Origin: a virus
Strand: one strand, 5' to 3'
Length of the DNA: 44,607 nucleotides
Virus record (IMG/VR): IMGVR_UViG_3300044843_000293
Span: 1-44,607 of that record
Shown: piece after piece, positions 1 to 21,059 of the stretch
Position numbering within the stretch: the stretch's first letter is position 1
Layout: each line of letters opens with the position of its first letter
Notes under the pieces: generated by a model
Databases searched by the model: none
What the model saw: the letters and a program-made list of their open reading frames with translations, nothing else
What the model was told of the DNA's origin: nothing
Made by a program: the position numbers and the translations under genes

Positions 1-621
1 ACCAGCGAGCAAGAGGAGAGCCTCAAACAATTCGTCAACGAAAACTTCCCCAAGATGGGCGGATGGTGCGATATCGAAAAGGCCATCCAAATCGGACAGA
101 TTGTTCTCGATACCAAGCCGCAGCGCATTGCTGAAGTCGGCGTCTTTGAAGGCAAATCAACGCTCGCACTTGCTCAATGCTGCAAGATGAATGGCAGCGG
201 AACGGTTTACGCCATCGACTCTTGGAAGAAAGAGGACTGCATTGACGATGAATCCTCCGCCAACCAAGAGTGGTGGTCGAATTTAGACCTCGAGTACCAT
301 TACGAGCAGTTCGTCTCGCATTCGGTTCGCACAAATCTTGTTCGCCATATCCAATTCTGCCGCATGTCGTCATGGGACGCGTCGCGATTTCTGCCTGACA
401 TGGACATGGTTCACATCGATGCCAACCACGCTGAATGGCCGTCCACAAGCGATGTGGTCAACTGGCTTCCGAAGCTCAAGGTTGGTGGATACCTCGTCAT
501 GGACGATGTGAACTGGGAATCGACGCAGACTGCGTTGAAGTTCGTTCTCAAACGCTGCCAATTCATTTCTCGGTTCGAACTTAAGGAAAGCGTGTTCGCA
601 ATCTACCGCAAGGAAAAGTAA
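1..621 (+). CDS. SAM-dependent methyltransferase (5' end at the other end of the window)
   Basis: The reading frame is open from base 1. Its true start codon is the ATG at 44472 of the overlapping right end, giving 207 aa once the genome is closed. It looks like a class I SAM methyltransferase of the Methyltransf_24 type. Glycine-rich motif I (EVGVFEGKS) lies at about residues 46-54, AIDSW follows about 25 residues later, and an acidic VHIDANHAEW lies at about 138-147, before KVGGYLVMDDV. This family often modifies sugars or other small acceptors; the substrate here is unknown. It follows the portal gene by 5 bases and precedes a glycosyltransferase, suggesting a glycan-modifying unit inside the head operon. 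An internal ATG at 55 is not needed as a start. Confidence 0.8.
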   Translation, partial: TSEQEESLKQFVNENFPKMGGWCDIEKAIQIGQIVLDTKPQRIAEVGVFEGKSTLALAQCCKMNGSGTVYAIDSWKKEDCIDDESSANQEWWSNLDLEYHYEQFVSHSVRTNLVRHIQFCRMSSWDASRFLPDMDMVHIDANHAEWPSTSDVVNWLPKLKVGGYLVMDDVNWESTQTALKFVLKRCQFISRFELKESVFAIYRKEK

Positions 622-624
622 TTC

Positions 625-1227
625 ATGGAATCCATTGTCATCACTATGCGGGGTTCAAACCGCATCCCGCGCATACAAAAACATTTTAAGGAAAACGGGG
701 TCGATAATTACCGCTTTTTCTATGGCATTGACGGTCCAAAATCTGGACTTGTTGCAAGCGTTTCGTACGAAGTTGATAAGCCTGAAAGCAAGTTGGTCAT
801 ACATCCAAAACAGCTCGGATGTTTTTTATCCCATTGGATGCTTTGGAAATCGTTAGACTTTGACCCAAGCACCCCAGATGCAGTTCAGATTTTTGAAGAT
901 GATGTTCTTCTTAGGCCACGCTGGAAGGAAACCGTTGAACGCGCGCTGACGAAACTACCAGAAGATTGGGACATTTTGTTCCCAGGATCTTGCTGCGCTG
1001 GCGACAAACGAAAAAAAGAATACGATTCAAATCTTTTTGAGGGATTTCCGCTCTGCACTCACCACTACATTGTCAGGAAAAAGGCTCTAAAAACACTGAT
1101 CGAATCCAATGAGGAGGTCTGCCAGCCGATAGACATTCAGTCTTACCACAGAAGTGGGCCACTGCTTCAGTCGTTTATTATTTTTCCGAGAGTTTCAGAT
1201 CAAGTTGACACTGTGTTTCCAGACTAA
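625..1227 (+). CDS. glycosyltransferase family 25-like protein
   Basis: This 200-aa protein has the GT25 (LPS/beta-1,4-galactosyltransferase-like) pattern. It starts with a strand carrying ITMRGSNRIPRI, then has YGIDG, then LGCFLSHWMLWKSL at about residues 64-77, then the acidic metal-binding strand QIFEDDVLL at about 88-96. GT25 enzymes transfer sugars to lipopolysaccharide cores or proteins. The start ATG lies three bases after the methyltransferase stop, with AAGGAAAAG as a weak ribosome-binding site. Together with its neighbours it probably alters a host surface glycan or decorates virions; that role is inference. The family assignment is fairly firm and the acceptor is unknown. Confidence 0.8.
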   Translation: MESIVITMRGSNRIPRIQKHFKENGVDNYRFFYGIDGPKSGLVASVSYEVDKPESKLVIHPKQLGCFLSHWMLWKSLDFDPSTPDAVQIFEDDVLLRPRWKETVERALTKLPEDWDILFPGSCCAGDKRKKEYDSNLFEGFPLCTHHYIVRKKALKTLIESNEEVCQPIDIQSYHRSGPLLQSFIIFPRVSDQVDTVFPD

Positions 1228-1229
1228 AA

Positions 1230-2573
1230 ATGAAAGACATCATCCGAGAGCTGTCTCTTAAAGCACTCAAGCGATTCGCAAATGGCGGTGATGGCCAAGC
1301 GGATCTTCTGAATGAAATTGAGGATCTGAAACGAACGCTTGAGATTCGAACCAAAGAACATGAGGAGCATCTGACCGAGGTCCGCGAGGAACGCGATCAT
1401 TGGCTTGCTCTCTACGATGAAATCAAATTCGCAGCAGAATTCCTAATGAGCTACGCAAAAAATGACGTTCCCAAGTTGGCCGAACAGGTTGACTGGGAGG
1501 TGGGCAAAATTGTCCTGCCTGAAGAAACTGGAACCTATTACTTCAATCCGGCAATCGTCCAAGATCCTGATGGAAAGATTCTCCTATTCACTCGCCGCTG
1601 CCGTAACAAGCGCGAGAAGGATGAGGACGTCTACGTCGAGAAGAACGACATCGTTATTTTCGAACTCAGCCAGAACCTGCGAGCCACCAAGAAGGCCCTA
1701 GCAACGCTGATTTCTCATTATCCGAATGAGCAGTTCGAAGACCCGCGCGTCGTTAAGTTCGGCGACAAGTATGGACTAAGCTGCTGCACGTTCGTCCCAT
1801 TCAAGTCGTACGCGCACCAGGGGATGTTCCTGCTCGATAAGCAGTTCCTAAACGTCGGTCGTTTCGATCCGATCTACGGAAACAACTACGCGCAGGCCAT
1901 GATCAATGATGGCCATGAGAAGAACTGGCTCTACTTCGTCCACGACAACGCGCCACACATGGTGTATTCGGCCAATCCTCATGTCGTAGTGCGCCTTAAT
2001 GGGCGTCTTGAGAAGGAAGCTGAATACGTTACCGACGAGTTCAACCCTCTTTGGAAGTTTGGAGATGTCCGAGGCGGTTCAAATCCAATCTACGTTGACG
2101 GTCTGTACTGGACCTTCTTCCACAGCTCCTTGCCGTGGATAAACAAGAAGCGTCGCTACTACATGGGCGCGTACGCATTCGAGGCAAAGCCTCCATTTCG
2201 CATCGCTCGGATGACGACTTTGCCGATTCTGACCGGAACAAATCAGCAAGACTGGTGGCCAGGACTTCCTGCGGTCGTGTTTCCGTGTGGCGCATTCTAC
2301 GACAGTGCAAAGAATCAATTCGTCGTGTCTTACGGCATCAACGATGTTGATTGCGGCTACATCAAGCTGCCGCTGGGCGACATGCTTGAAATCACCAAGG
2401 TCATCCGGCCGAATCGCGATGTCGTCAACAAAGAGAATCCAATCCGATTGGATGAGGTTCTCGACCCAATTCCCCCAAAGCACAAACTGAAACGAAACAC
2501 GAAGACAAGATATGATGAACTGGCTAAGAGGCTTGAAGAACGAGAACCCGAAGAACCTGCTGGAGCTGCCTGA
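1230..2573 (+). CDS. beta-propeller glycosidase-like protein (GH130/GH43-type fold)
   Basis: This is a 447-aa protein. Residues about 20-66 form a charged coiled coil rich in E, K and R. The rest resembles five-bladed beta-propeller glycoside hydrolases or phosphorylases: YYFNPAIVQDPDGKILLFTR, then FEDPRVVKFGDKYGLSC (EDPR is typical of GH130), then GSNPIYVDGLYWTFFHSS, then a late VVFPCGAFYDS...VSYGINDVDCGYIKL block. GH130 proteins act on mannosides; catalytic activity here is not proven. The coiled coil could mediate oligomerisation or virion attachment. It sits just after a GT25 gene and overlaps the next gene by 62 bases. Confidence 0.65.
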   Translation: MKDIIRELSLKALKRFANGGDGQADLLNEIEDLKRTLEIRTKEHEEHLTEVREERDHWLALYDEIKFAAEFLMSYAKNDVPKLAEQVDWEVGKIVLPEETGTYYFNPAIVQDPDGKILLFTRRCRNKREKDEDVYVEKNDIVIFELSQNLRATKKALATLISHYPNEQFEDPRVVKFGDKYGLSCCTFVPFKSYAHQGMFLLDKQFLNVGRFDPIYGNNYAQAMINDGHEKNWLYFVHDNAPHMVYSANPHVVVRLNGRLEKEAEYVTDEFNPLWKFGDVRGGSNPIYVDGLYWTFFHSSLPWINKKRRYYMGAYAFEAKPPFRIARMTTLPILTGTNQQDWWPGLPAVVFPCGAFYDSAKNQFVVSYGINDVDCGYIKLPLGDMLEITKVIRPNRDVVNKENPIRLDEVLDPIPPKHKLKRNTKTRYDELAKRLEEREPEEPAGAA

Positions 2574-4033: not shown

Positions 4034-4066
4034 ATCCCCCGATGGTTCTCATTACCACCGGGGGAT
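4034..4066. terminator. bidirectional hairpin terminator
   Basis: A 12-base inverted repeat with one mismatch pairs 4034-4045 (starting ATCCCCCG) with 4055-4066 (ending CGGGGGAT) around a 9-base loop. It is followed by TTTTCGTTT on the plus strand and by an AATTGTTTT run on the minus strand. It lies 7 bases after the scaffold-like gene and 15 bases after the end of the minus-strand lysis block, so it can stop transcription from both sides. Confidence 0.85.
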
Positions 4067-4081
4067 TTTCGTTTAAATCAC

Positions 4082-4225
4082 TTATCTACGGTAAGGACCG
4101 CTTCCGATCGGAACCGGCTTTGCAACCGGCTTAATCGGAGGCTTCGGCGGAGGAGACTGCTTGTAAGGTCCGCTGCCGCCAACCTTAACAGACGGCGAAC
4201 CTTTGTACGGTGCGTTATTGCTCAT
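4082..4225 (-). CDS. 47-aa proline-rich small protein at the end of the lysis cassette
   Basis: This short frame starts at an ATG whose last bases form the TGA stop of the lipoprotein gene (ATGA overlap). It encodes 47 aa made of a repeated GSGPYK/R element (about residues 17-22 and 42-47) and a basic proline-rich middle with PPPKPPIKPVAKPV. There is no membrane segment. The start/stop coupling and the repeated motif make it likely to be real. It could be a cell-wall-spanning or anchoring peptide, but the function is unknown. Confidence 0.55.
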   Translation of the reverse strand: MSNNAPYKGSPSVKVGGSGPYKQSPPPKPPIKPVAKPVPIGSGPYRR

Positions 4226-4452
4226 TCTTTTGGGAGTGCATACCAGCCTTCATGGATGGTAATACGGTTCTGACTACGCACCGATTTGCCGCTCGCGTCA
4301 ACGACCCAAACCTTAGCCTTAACGTCCTCAGCAAGCCTCACCGGCTCACCGTGGGGGACGTAAATCACTCGGCTCGCGCAGCTCACGCTCATGCTCGCGC
4401 ACACGATCAAGAAGACCGCGCTTAAGATCAGGTTGTTTCTTGGCGTCTTCAT
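4222..4452 (-). CDS. small outer-membrane lipoprotein, o-spanin-like (Rz1-type)
   Basis: This 76-aa protein has a basic N-terminus, a hydrophobic stretch (residues 8-20) and a lipobox SVSC with Cys25 as the predicted lipidated residue. The mature part contains VPHGEPVRLAEDVKAKVWVVD and ends in EGWYALPKE. Its start lies out of frame inside the upstream 59-aa membrane protein gene, the architecture known for Rz/Rz1 spanin pairs that fuse inner and outer membranes at lysis. Lipidation is well supported by sequence; the spanin role is inferred from context. If right, the host has an outer membrane. Confidence 0.65.
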   Translation of the reverse strand: MKTPRNNLILSAVFLIVCASMSVSCASRVIYVPHGEPVRLAEDVKAKVWVVDASGKSVRSQNRITIHEGWYALPKE

Positions 4453-4525
4453 TTGTTGTGTCCTGCTTGGTCAGCGCATGAAGCCAGATGACCAGCTTCA
4501 TAACGAGGTCGGCCAGGAAGTTCAT
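4346..4525 (-). CDS. 59-aa membrane protein, i-spanin-like (Rz-type), overlapping the lipoprotein gene
   Basis: The ATG at 4525 overlaps the TGA of the holin-like gene (ATGA). The product has one N-terminal hydrophobic segment (FLADLVMKLVIWLHAL, residues 3-18) followed by a strongly charged tail rich in K, R, D and E that could form a helix (about 28-52) and ends PPR. The lipoprotein gene starts within it in another frame, and the two overlap for 107 bases. A membrane anchor plus charged tail, with a lipoprotein nested in it, matches an i-spanin/o-spanin pair. It is shorter than lambda Rz, so the assignment is tentative. Confidence 0.55.
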   Translation of the reverse strand: MNFLADLVMKLVIWLHALTKQDTTNEDAKKQPDLKRGLLDRVREHERELREPSDLRPPR

Positions 4526-4716
4526 TCCGTCTGTTTAGCGGGTGCAGCAGCGGCTGATTGCTTGTTCTTCCACATAGACCAAGCGACGCCAGAAATGCTG
4601 ACAGCAGCACCGGCCAATTCAGCAACCTGATCGGCGCTGGCCAACCCTTTGGCAACGATGAATCCACCGGCAGCGGTCAGGATGTGGCGGAGAAGAGAGG
4701 AGATATTAGCGTTCAT
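4522..4716 (-). CDS. holin-like protein (Pam3 gp28-type)
   Basis: This 64-aa protein starts at the ATG at 4716, which overlaps the stop of the upstream gene (ATGA); an upstream in-frame extension is ignored. It has the helix SSLLRHILTAAGGFIVAKGLAS, a linker with DQVAELAG, a second hydrophobic helix AAVSISGVAWSMW, then a charged/alanine-rich tail. This matches the small two-segment holins of the Pam3 gp28 type found in phage lysis cassettes, which permeabilise the inner membrane. A C-terminal AAAAPAKQTE tail is unremarkable. The next gene starts on its TGA. Confidence 0.7.
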   Translation of the reverse strand: MNANISSLLRHILTAAGGFIVAKGLASADQVAELAGAAVSISGVAWSMWKNKQSAAAAPAKQTE

Positions 4717-4907
4717 TTGTCGTTTTTGAGTTTGCGATAAAGTTCGACTGCTTTCACGACGCAAGTAAGAAGCGCGGCGAGCGCGCCAAGTGCCAATGAC
4801 GCAGTCTTGAGATGAGGATCGGAGAATACCGCGTTCCCCAGAATGCCGATGGCCGGACCACCGACGCCGATTGAGATGTCTCTTAAAAATGCGTGGTGGT
4901 CCGTCAT
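4713..4907 (-). CDS. second small membrane protein of the lysis cassette
   Basis: This 64-aa protein has two likely membrane segments, about residues 11-28 (ISIGVGGPAIGILGNAVF) and 34-53 (TASLALGALAALLTCVVKAV), followed by a short basic tail (RKLKNDK). It starts 8 bases after the preceding stop and its own stop overlaps the start of the holin-like gene. Size, topology and position fit a holin or antiholin; which of the two tandem membrane proteins makes the hole cannot be told from sequence. Confidence 0.6.
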   Translation of the reverse strand: MTDHHAFLRDISIGVGGPAIGILGNAVFSDPHLKTASLALGALAALLTCVVKAVELYRKLKNDK

Positions 4908-4915
4908 CGTGGTGG

Positions 4916-5074
4916 TTAGTTAGTGTCCGCCTGCGATTGCTTGGCAGCTTCCAAAATCAGTTCGGCCAGAGGTACGCCGACCTTTGCATTCTGGAAACCG
5001 CCAGCCTTGATAGCGATATCGATGAGTTGGAGGAGTTGATTGGCCTGCTCAGTGGTAAGTTCGATTGTAATCAT
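4916..5074 (-). CDS. 52-aa small protein, function unknown
   Basis: This short frame starts at the ATG at 5074, overlapping the TGA of the upstream gene (ATGA). It encodes 52 aa in two helices: TTEQANQLLQLIDIAIKAGG and VPLAELILEAAKQSQADTN. It has no membrane segment or cysteine. Coupling on both sides and a helix-turn-helix-like length suggest a real protein expressed with the lysis cassette. I do not recognise a family. Confidence 0.55.
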   Translation of the reverse strand: MITIELTTEQANQLLQLIDIAIKAGGFQNAKVGVPLAELILEAAKQSQADTN

Positions 5075-5523
5075 GCCACCGGAGCATCCGAAACAACCGG
5101 CTGTTCGTCAACAGCGGCGACAGGAGTTTCCGCATTGACGAGCGGCGGCTCCACCTGCGGCAACATCGGAGGAACGATTTCAACCGGAGGCAACCACGGC
5201 AGCGGAGGAGCGATAATCGGCGGGTTGATCTGGTCGTTGATCTGCTGCGTCACGTTGGCTTCGATGGCAGTCTTATCGACGCCGTTGGCGAAGCACCAAT
5301 CCAGCACCTGCTGCTCGGTCAGATCCTCGTAAGGCGTGAAGTTCTCGCTCGGCGGAGCGAACGACGCGCTGCCGTAGCAAGTGCCGCTGTAGGTCTTTGC
5401 GTCGTCGCCGGTGCCGATGGTTTCGGTGCCGTTGCATCGCCAATCGGCGGTGATGACGACATCGGAGTAGGTGCCTTCGACTTTGCGGACGAGAAGGCGT
5501 TCGATGATCCAAGAGATGTTCAT
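5071..5523 (-). CDS. phage protein with proline-rich C-terminus, function unknown
   Basis: This 150-aa protein has an N-terminal beta-rich domain (about residues 1-60: VEGTYSDVVITADWRCNGTE, then a TYSGTCYGS stretch), a middle helical part (LTEQQVLDWCFANG, TAIEANVTQQINDQI) and a proline-rich C-terminal tail (residues 100-150). Similar proteins lie beside tail fibre genes in environmental phages, so a tail-associated role or fibre chaperone is possible. It lies 11 bases downstream of the fibre gene and its stop overlaps the next start. Confidence 0.6.
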   Translation of the reverse strand: MNISWIIERLLVRKVEGTYSDVVITADWRCNGTETIGTGDDAKTYSGTCYGSASFAPPSENFTPYEDLTEQQVLDWCFANGVDKTAIEANVTQQINDQINPPIIAPPLPWLPPVEIVPPMLPQVEPPLVNAETPVAAVDEQPVVSDAPVA

Positions 5524-14436: not shown

Positions 14437-14826
14437 ATGCATCCATTGCTTTTATCCGCTCTCATTCAGGTCGAATCCGGTGGAAACGATCAGGCCCGAG
14501 GCCGTCACGGCGAACTCGGCGCGCTTCAAATCAAATCGATCATGGTCCGCGACGTAAACCGAATCATGGGTACATCCTACGCGCACCAACAGGTAACCAA
14601 CCGCGCCATCTCGATCTTCATCGCGGAAAGCTATTTCGCGCACTATGGCAAACACCTCAGCGACGAATCTTTAGCTCGGATCTGGCAAGGTGGGCCAAAA
14701 GCCCTTAAAAGATCATCATCACGCGCGTATGGCCGCCGGGTCATGCGCGAGCTTGAACGCCAGCGAACCGTCAAGGATTCCATGACAGTTCAATTCACTG
14801 AAAAGCCCATTTTCACCGCACGGTAA
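14437..14826 (+). CDS. lysozyme-like (SLT-type) muralytic enzyme, possible endolysin
   Basis: This 129-aa protein has the start of a lytic-transglycosylase/lysozyme fold: LLSALIQVESGGN with Glu13 as the likely catalytic acid, then GRHGELGALQIKSIMVRDVNRI, where GALQI is the second conserved part. ISIFIAESYFAHYGK and ARIWQGGPKAL follow. It would cleave peptidoglycan glycan strands. No signal peptide or cell-wall-binding domain is seen, so release would depend on the holins at 4.5-4.9 kb, unusually far away on the other strand. An entry-related role is possible. Confidence 0.7.
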   Translation: MHPLLLSALIQVESGGNDQARGRHGELGALQIKSIMVRDVNRIMGTSYAHQQVTNRAISIFIAESYFAHYGKHLSDESLARIWQGGPKALKRSSSRAYGRRVMRELERQRTVKDSMTVQFTEKPIFTAR

Positions 14827-19367: not shown

Positions 19368-21059
19368 ATGAAAGTCAAACTTGTAGCTATTACAAAACCC
19401 CTTATCGGCGACGGGACAATGACCGCGTCCGATTTCATCACGTTCGCCGCCCGTGTCAGCAATCCGAGCAATCAGATGAGTCTGCTCACCGCTCCGAAAC
19501 TACTGGCCTACTGCATCAGGCATGGCCATTGGAGCATCTTCGAACAGGCGTCGATGACAGTCGAGATTCAGACGAGTCGTGCTATCTCCGCCCAGATCAT
19601 TCGCCATCGCAGCTTCTGCTTCCAAGAATTTTGCGTCGCCGGGGATACACGCATTACGCTTGAGCTTCCAAACGGCGCAAAGAAAGGAAAACGATCAGCC
19701 TACTCAAGGACGATTGAACACTTGTATCGGCTTCAGCAGAGAGGCGCAAAGATGCCCTCAAACATTCGCGTTTTCGATGAGGAAACTAGGACGTTTGTGA
19801 ACACTCAAATCGCTGAGGTGTTTCAGGCAGGGGTGAAGCCGCTCTTCAAAATCACGCTAGAAAATGGGAAGAGCATTGAGACTACAAAGGAACACAAGTT
19901 TTTGACCTCTGATGGCTTTAAGTCGCTTGAGGATGCAGTTGGACTTTGCCTTTCAGGGAATACTGCTACATGGAAAAACAACGAGGTTGAGATTGGATGC
20001 AACGGTGTGCCTGCATATCAAGATAAGCAGTGGCTTTTGGATGCGAAACTCAAGTCTATCGAGAGCAAGCTAGGACTTAACGGGATTGCTGAAGATGCAG
20101 GAACCTCGACACACACCATAAGGAAGTGGCTGAAAAGGCATGGTGTTCAGTTTACGAAGCGTGAGGTTTCGTCGTTCACTCCAGTTTGGAACAAAGGAAT
20201 CAAGTGGAGTCGTGGAAGTCATTCGATTGAAACGATTTCCAAGATGAGGGATTCGGCCAGAAAAGGATCTGCAAGTAACCTTTGGAAAGGTGGTGTTTCC
20301 AGGGCTGAACGTCTTTCTGTGGCCGACTGGTGCAATGCAAATCGATCCGAGTTTCTGATCAAGTTTTCTCACAGGTGTAATCGATGCGGAGGAAGCAAGA
20401 TGCTTGAGCTTCACCACATTGTTCCGGTCAGCGAAAATCCGAGTCTTGCTCGTGAAAAGTCGAACATCGAGGTGCTTTGCAAGCGATGCCATGCAGAGCA
20501 TCACAGAATCCTAGGCCATGCGAAAAGCTGGAGAGAGAAGCATCCTGGAAACACGCTCACAGTCCATTGGAGCAAAATTAAATCCATCGAGTTCGTTGGC
20601 GAAAAAATGACCTACGATCTTGAGGTCAAACATTCATCGCACAATTACGTTGCAAACGGAATCGTCACGCACAACTCACAGCGATATGCGCCGACCGATA
20701 CTGCCGAGCTGGTTGAGCTTCGCACCCAGGACCGTGTTAATCGCCAGGGAAGCGGAGAGGTTTATCCGCAAGAGTGGGCCAATGAAGTTGTTGCCAAGTC
20801 TGTCGATCTGGCTTTCAGGACATATCGAACGCTGATCAATGAGGGTGTGAGCCGAGAGACTGCTCGCATGGTTCTTCCGCTCTGTACGCAGACGACGCTG
20901 TACATGACCGGCAACATCCGCTCATGGATTCATTACCTCGAACAGCGTTGCGCCAAGGGTACACAGAAGGAGCATCGCGACATCGCCATTGCCATTCGCG
21001 ACACGATCTTCGCCATTGAATTCTCGCACATTCACGCGGCATTGGAGGAATCGAAATGA
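19368..21059 (+). CDS. thyX: ThyX thymidylate synthase precursor with an in-frame intein
   Basis: This 563-aa precursor has an N-extein (1-88) and a C-extein (437-563) that join into a 215-aa ThyX, a normal length. The signature is rebuilt as RHRSFCFQEF + SQRY, matching the RHRxxSxxxxSxRY motif of FAD-dependent thymidylate synthases that make dTMP from dUMP. The C-extein has ELRTQDRVNRQ and SRETARMVLPLCTQTTLYMTGNIRSW. The intein (348 aa, 89-436) sits exactly in the active-site motif. The gene supplies dTMP for phage DNA; it starts after GCATCCAATTCGTATCC. Its stop overlaps the next start (ATGA). Confidence 0.9.
   Translation: MKVKLVAITKPLIGDGTMTASDFITFAARVSNPSNQMSLLTAPKLLAYCIRHGHWSIFEQASMTVEIQTSRAISAQIIRHRSFCFQEFCVAGDTRITLELPNGAKKGKRSAYSRTIEHLYRLQQRGAKMPSNIRVFDEETRTFVNTQIAEVFQAGVKPLFKITLENGKSIETTKEHKFLTSDGFKSLEDAVGLCLSGNTATWKNNEVEIGCNGVPAYQDKQWLLDAKLKSIESKLGLNGIAEDAGTSTHTIRKWLKRHGVQFTKREVSSFTPVWNKGIKWSRGSHSIETISKMRDSARKGSASNLWKGGVSRAERLSVADWCNANRSEFLIKFSHRCNRCGGSKMLELHHIVPVSENPSLAREKSNIEVLCKRCHAEHHRILGHAKSWREKHPGNTLTVHWSKIKSIEFVGEKMTYDLEVKHSSHNYVANGIVTHNSQRYAPTDTAELVELRTQDRVNRQGSGEVYPQEWANEVVAKSVDLAFRTYRTLINEGVSRETARMVLPLCTQTTLYMTGNIRSWIHYLEQRCAKGTQKEHRDIAIAIRDTIFAIEFSHIHAALEESK
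19632..20675 (+). mobile_element. intein with HNH homing endonuclease domain inside thyX
   Basis: This 348-aa intein starts with Cys89 (block A CVAGDTRITL). It has block B with T-x-x-H (ETTKEHKFL, 171-179), and ends with YDLEVKHSSHNYVA (block F) and NGIVTHN (block G: penultimate His, terminal Asn); the +1 extein residue is Ser. These are the residues needed for splicing. In the middle lie a helix-turn-helix-like piece (GIAEDAGTSTHTIRKWLKRHG), a NUMOD-like segment (HSIETISKMRDSARKGSASN) and an HNH core with two Cys pairs (337/340, 371/374) and HHIVPV at 349-354. Confidence 0.88.

Follow-up and report, generated by a model that had tools for sequence, protein, structure and literature searches.

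The spanins described so far belong to many families that are unrelated to one another, and a match to one of these families is usual rather than required. Among the two-component systems, Rz/Rz1 of lambda and LysB/LysC of P2 are the prototypes of the overlapped arrangement, and according to a survey 196 of 528 two-component systems had no annotation at all for the o-spanin gene (PMC6139136). Here we describe a pair of overlapping genes, i59 and lip76, that lie directly behind a predicted holin gene in the record of an uncultured freshwater virus and for which, with moderate confidence, we propose a spanin-like role in the outer-membrane step of holin–endolysin lysis. We use the label 'spanin-like' rather than calling the pair a proven spanin because neither protein has a sequence match to spanin families, because the type II topology of the inner partner is doubtful, and because the survey's criteria left other topologies or anchors unconsidered (PMC6139136).

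Layout of the proposed lysis cassette

The window is the whole 44.6-kb virus record, and the cassette lies on its minus strand at 5074–4082. An earlier note had described six small minus-strand genes here with four ATGA junctions, and our reading of the record agrees, with all frames found as described. The features discussed below are the following:

5071–5523, minus strand: 150-aa DUF7936 protein (PF25590, 72.5 bits), the cassette's syntenic neighbour, which adjoins tail-fibre-like genes
4916–5074, minus strand: p52, a 52-aa soluble helical protein of unassigned role; ATGA start on the stop of the 150-aa gene
4713–4907, minus strand: m64, a 64-aa small membrane protein with a hydrophobic segment (KD19 2.06)
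4522–4716, minus strand: 64-aa predicted holin of the Pam3 gp28 family (PF23987, Phage_holin_10); ATGA start on the m64 stop
4346–4525, minus strand: i59, a 59-aa EDA-motif protein, candidate inner subunit of the spanin-like pair; ATGA start on the holin stop
4222–4452, minus strand: lip76, a 76-aa lipoprotein in the +1 frame inside i59, with a signal peptide and Cys25; candidate outer subunit
4082–4225, minus strand: p47, a 47-aa proline-rich protein with GSGPY[KR] repeats; ATGA start on the lip76 stop
4034–4066, minus strand: terminator-like hairpin with a 13-bp stem, which closes the gene cluster
14437–14826, plus strand: candidate endolysin, a 129-aa SLT transglycosylase domain (PF01464) without an obvious export signal

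Named by the lengths of their products, the four junctions are 150/52, 64/64, 64/59 and 76/47, and p52 and m64 are separated by an 8-nt gap. The lipoprotein with lipobox Cys25 that the earlier note placed out of frame inside the 59-aa gene is also present in the sequence: lip76 starts 73 nt into i59 in the +1 frame, and 107 nt are common to both genes. The gene arrangement of a two-component spanin, with a +1 overlap directly behind a Pfam holin, is thereby found in this record. No obvious strong Shine–Dalgarno site was seen at any cassette gene (4222–5523, minus strand), which may bear on the host.

As the earlier note had suspected, the product of 4522–4716 belongs with the holins. In an HMM family search it matched nearly the whole PF23987 model (Phage_holin_10, Pam3 gp28; positions 2–51 of 52) and scored well above the curated cut-off (66.1 bits versus 27; E 2.8e-18), making it an ordinary member of Phage_holin_10 with a predicted holin function. 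Profile searches gave no confident family for m64, which is a candidate second holin or antiholin, and only weak DUF7180 and DUF7438 matches for p52.

Two further regions of the window were of note. Adjoining the cassette, a cargo block at 55–2573 (plus strand) carries methyltransferase-like, LPS-glycosyltransferase-like (Glyco_transf_25) and other genes. The 563-aa product of 19368–21056 (plus strand) resembles a flavin-dependent thymidylate synthase at its start. Thy1 and an intein splicing domain are among the Pfam matches of the window proteins; probably both belong to this one protein, in which case it would be a ThyX with an intein.

Both overlapping frames are under selection

To ask whether i59 and lip76 are both genes, we analyzed 100 distinct homologous sequences from IMG/VR. 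The absence or breakage of either frame in close relatives had been named beforehand as the outcome that would tell against the pair. Instead, i59 keeps its ATG and an unbroken frame in 100/100 sequences (lengths of 51, 59 or 70 aa) and the lip76 frame is open in 100/100, with a start at or near codon 1, while the third frame over the same stretch contains 5–9 stops. That the second frame is open across the overlap is weak evidence by itself because 32% of synonymous recodings of the i59 gene keep that frame open. For the same reason, chance openness across these 35 codons is not rare, and i59 might have been no more than a reading frame open by chance across the lipoprotein leader. The pattern of change tells against this. 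In tree-based parsimony counts, lip76 codon position 3 undergoes 1.0 changes per site inside the overlap versus 5.4–6.2 outside, a five- to sixfold drop, and i59 codon position 3 goes from 4.1 changes per site outside to 2.8 inside. Both frames are therefore constrained, the i59 frame more strongly. Since changes in the overlap fall mainly at i59 position 3 rather than at lip76 position 3, and since the i59 ATG and frame are kept throughout, the conservation data refute the chance frame, to which we assign almost no probability. i59 and lip76 are both real, overlapping genes.

The pair is kept together across divergent phages

More distant relatives were found with a degenerate DNA pattern for EGWYALP that was designed to exclude close relatives. 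The divergent lipoproteins have C25, R28, G35, PVRL, V44, VW, G55 and EGWYALP in common with lip76 and differ in their signal peptides, and each has, just upstream, a small out-of-frame gene with the motif [TS]xEDA...L..R. This EDA gene and the lipoprotein gene occur together in 319/320 loci, a count that includes repeated fetches of some contigs, and always in the +1 relation; a comparable ORF was found in 29/400 random stretches of the same contigs. The overlap measures 62–140 nt except in two loci (L228 and L248), where the two genes are separated by 184 nt with a DUF1508 gene between them.

Across 80 divergent loci, the DUF7936 gene persists in 56, p52 in 62, the EDA gene in 64 and the lipoprotein in 78 (the last by construction), and m64 is found in only 4, the Pam3-type holin in 5 and p47 in 3. 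Other small membrane proteins replace m64 and the holin, one of them a PHROG holin (phrog_2359, E 5e-15), the surrounding structural genes differ, and in another phage the pair follows a PF23987-like protein. Since the holin, m64 and p47 are exchanged while the pair persists, the lipoprotein/EDA pair is the kept unit and p47 is accessory. The best reading of these comparisons is that the pair would be a mobile spanin-like module with a +1 overlap, passed on in one piece among different phages.

The distribution of p47 does not support it as part of the lysis core. It is present in 72/80 close loci, 16 of which carry ∼407–416 nt between lip76 and p47, and most of the divergent relatives with the pair do not have it. 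On these grounds p47 was rejected as a lysis gene, and by gene content it is accessory, outside the conserved lysis core. The insert of ∼410 nt between the lipoprotein and p47, seen in L016 and 15 other close loci and variably present among close relatives, has two small basic genes (MKKNVPTNTSLYSKMKSAAKAKFDVYPSAYANAWLVREYKKRGGKYK... and MSDKKVRGGLGRWFAEKWVDIKTGKPCGR...).

Searches of 50,697 phage records (cultured phages) with lip76, i59 and their divergent homologues returned no convincing relative, and plasmids searched with the divergent lipoprotein gave nothing convincing. Sub-threshold matches of the relatives' signal peptides to Rz-like PHROGs had E-values of 0.02–0.04. Terminase and primase placed the virus near no cultured phage. 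One MAG contig of 4.8 kb (L082), labelled Nitrosomonadales, also has the pair, and among 398 genomes from the phylum of this MAG the match was in that MAG alone. The contig is short and may be a stray phage contig or misbinned, so we claim no host.

lip76 is a predicted lipoprotein with a compact modelled beta domain

With its signal helix, Cys25 and Ala at +2, lip76 has the lipoprotein signal and lipobox cysteine expected of an o-spanin. Cys25 is invariant in 100/100 distinct sequences, and position 18, a cysteine in some, is Leu or Phe in others. The lipobox SVSC is off the consensus [LVI][ASTVI][GAS]C at −3 and fits a looser PROSITE-type pattern, as is general in the family: 10/150 lipoproteins match the consensus and 141/150 the looser pattern as coded. 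The +2 residue is Ala or Gly in 141/150, which is consistent with predicted sorting to the outer membrane.

The structure model of lip76 has a small all-beta mature domain of six short strands (pLDDT 81–88 over residues 31–70). A fold search of the PDB gave no match below E 0.3, and among viral models the sole stand-out was A0A6J7WFE6 (E 0.0067, 42% identity), an uncharacterised 61-aa protein from an uncultured phage that is the nearest named structure model to lip76. The spanin-family HMM search called for by the earlier note gave no match for the window proteins, and profile and fold searches together found no convincing match of lip76 or i59 to any spanin family or solved fold.

A folded, strongly conserved beta domain, rather than the proline-rich unstructured tail of Rz1, could also point to a role in the envelope instead of lysis, with lip76 blocking superinfection or altering the cell surface and its gene placed among the late genes for convenience. 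Receptor-blocking functions are known for small phage lipoproteins such as T5 Llp. We regard such a function as very unlikely, since lip76 stays behind the holin whichever of several holin families is present and keeps its out-of-frame partner, and since a survey reports lipoprotein genes to be uncommon in phage genomes and to be the usual lead to spanins (PMC6139136).

i59 is not a clear-cut membrane protein

The earlier note had called i59 a membrane protein and likened it to an i-spanin. Its position and overlap are spanin-like, and its N-terminal segment is weakly hydrophobic, but that segment scores below a normal transmembrane helix (KD19 1.39 versus 2.63 for lambda Rz). Among homologues, KD19 ranges from 2.43 in L228, a good transmembrane helix, down to 0.56 in L239, where there is clearly none, and reaches only 0.56–1.24 in group C. 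Of the invariant residues (D6, K10, H16, E26 and D27), the first three fall within this segment. The positive-inside rule does not favour an N-in/C-out orientation because no positive charge precedes it. The i59 model, of modest confidence (mean pLDDT 68), has two helices (2–19 and 32–49) joined by a linker. What stands of the earlier proposal is the holin, the nested outer-membrane-type lipoprotein, intact in all relatives, and the lysis context, while the i-spanin identity of the 59-aa protein is not clearly supported. If the C-terminus of i59 is outside, the parts following its N-terminal helix and Cys25 of lip76 give a combined periplasmic length of ∼41 + 51 = 92 residues, inside the 62–300 residues of known two-component spanins (PMC6139136).

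The N-terminal segments look amphipathic in several EDA-family groups, with hydrophobic moments of 0.53 in L230 (shuffle P <0.001) and 0.46 in L228 (P 0.0004) versus 0.11 for lambda Rz, and some EDA homologues are without a transmembrane segment. Together with the position of the EDA gene directly behind the holin, this could suit a different division of labour, in which disruption of the outer membrane falls to lip76, by itself or together with a partner from the host, and the EDA protein is an amphipathic, antiholin-like regulator of the holin on the cytoplasmic side, the overlap only coupling expression. We consider this possible but unlikely. The EDA gene tracks the lipoprotein and not one holin type, as holins change and the pair stays; the pair members in L228 and L248 remain neighbours despite the intervening DUF1508 gene; and i59 itself is not significantly amphipathic (P 0.12).

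Amphipathicity could also be accommodated within a spanin-like system if the inner partner, instead of being a type II transmembrane protein, attached to the membrane through a short amphipathic N-terminal helix with the conserved EDA motif and acted with a compact beta-domain lipoprotein. We put this forward tentatively, as a doubtful case. If true, amphipathic anchoring would be a third mode, in addition to those of unimolecular spanins and of two-component spanins that have a transmembrane helix, and in either event the pair offers a compact natural system for probing the least inner-membrane anchoring with which spanin-like proteins can work.

A candidate endolysin and a proposed lysis pathway

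An endolysin inside the cluster was rejected, as profile searches of the cluster genes gave no such family. The SLT gene, 10 kb from the cassette, scores 26.8 bits against PF01464 (cut-off 21.3), the only muralytic family among the matches listed (25 of 33 families; 54 window proteins), and is present in 16/17 relatives >38 kb, one copy having stops. The endolysin is thus probably encoded outside the cluster, and we infer from the domain match that the 129-aa SLT protein is the likely endolysin. G008 (the 46.9-kb record behind L075) is the only relative >38 kb without the SLT gene, and its i59 is the short 51-aa form. A replacement muralytic enzyme was looked for in G008 and not found, and an alternative lysozyme-like gene in L244 does not account for the missing gene.

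In the pathway that we propose, the Pam3-type holin, probably modulated by m64, would open the inner membrane, and the SLT transglycosylase encoded elsewhere would then degrade the peptidoglycan. lip76 would be exported, lipid-modified at Cys25 and sorted by its Ala at +2 to the outer membrane, provided that the host has one. i59 would be anchored to the inner membrane via its N-terminal helix and pair with lip76, and the two would jointly disrupt the outer membrane, in the manner of Rz/Rz1, on release of new viruses. We infer these localisations, the lip76–i59 contact and the outer-membrane disruption from the features above. A spanin-like role is the best explanation because of the holin, the lipobox, the co-conservation, and the same place and frame as the pair in Microcystis phage Mae-JY04 described below.

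Gene callers miss genes this short and overlapping. The family of the pair spans hundreds of environmental contigs with different phage backbones, has no relative that could be recognised among the cultured phages searched, and supplies a profile for annotating outer-membrane lysis in such viruses.

Comparison with known systems

As in the overlapped two-component spanins, a small gene behind the holin is overlapped by a +1 lipoprotein gene that runs beyond it; separated versions also exist within the family, and the combined length is similar. Unlike those systems, i59 and lip76 have no detectable sequence relation to them, the inner partner is short (59 aa) and its transmembrane helix doubtful, and lip76 has a conserved beta-rich domain rather than a proline-rich tail, with a lipobox that departs from consensus.

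Microcystis phages encode a weak homologue of the window holin (E 0.02), and the gene for it immediately precedes an Rz/Rz1-like pair. In the cultured phage Mae-JY04 (PP395637), the stop of this holin homologue is overlapped by a 195-aa gene that has a clear transmembrane segment, a weak match to Rz-like spanins and a proline-rich lipoprotein frame in +1. Annotated as hypothetical, this gene (L350, 3725–4312) resembles one for an Rz-type i-spanin, and the proline-rich o-spanin that it seems to hold in +1 (MNWKQLSALMLLATTACAGSSQ...) is missing from the annotation. A published statement that cyanobacterial phages are without spanins (PMC12596118) appears to conflict with this pair. The Mae-JY04 pair has no sequence relation to i59 or lip76, and its i-spanin, in contrast to i59, has a clear transmembrane helix and a long helical region, with a proline-rich o-spanin. 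Even so, the window pair has the same place behind the holin, the same overlapping start and the same +1 lipoprotein frame within. The protein family of the pair is undescribed in the databases searched, its arrangement is itself of a known kind, and its inner partner is unusual.
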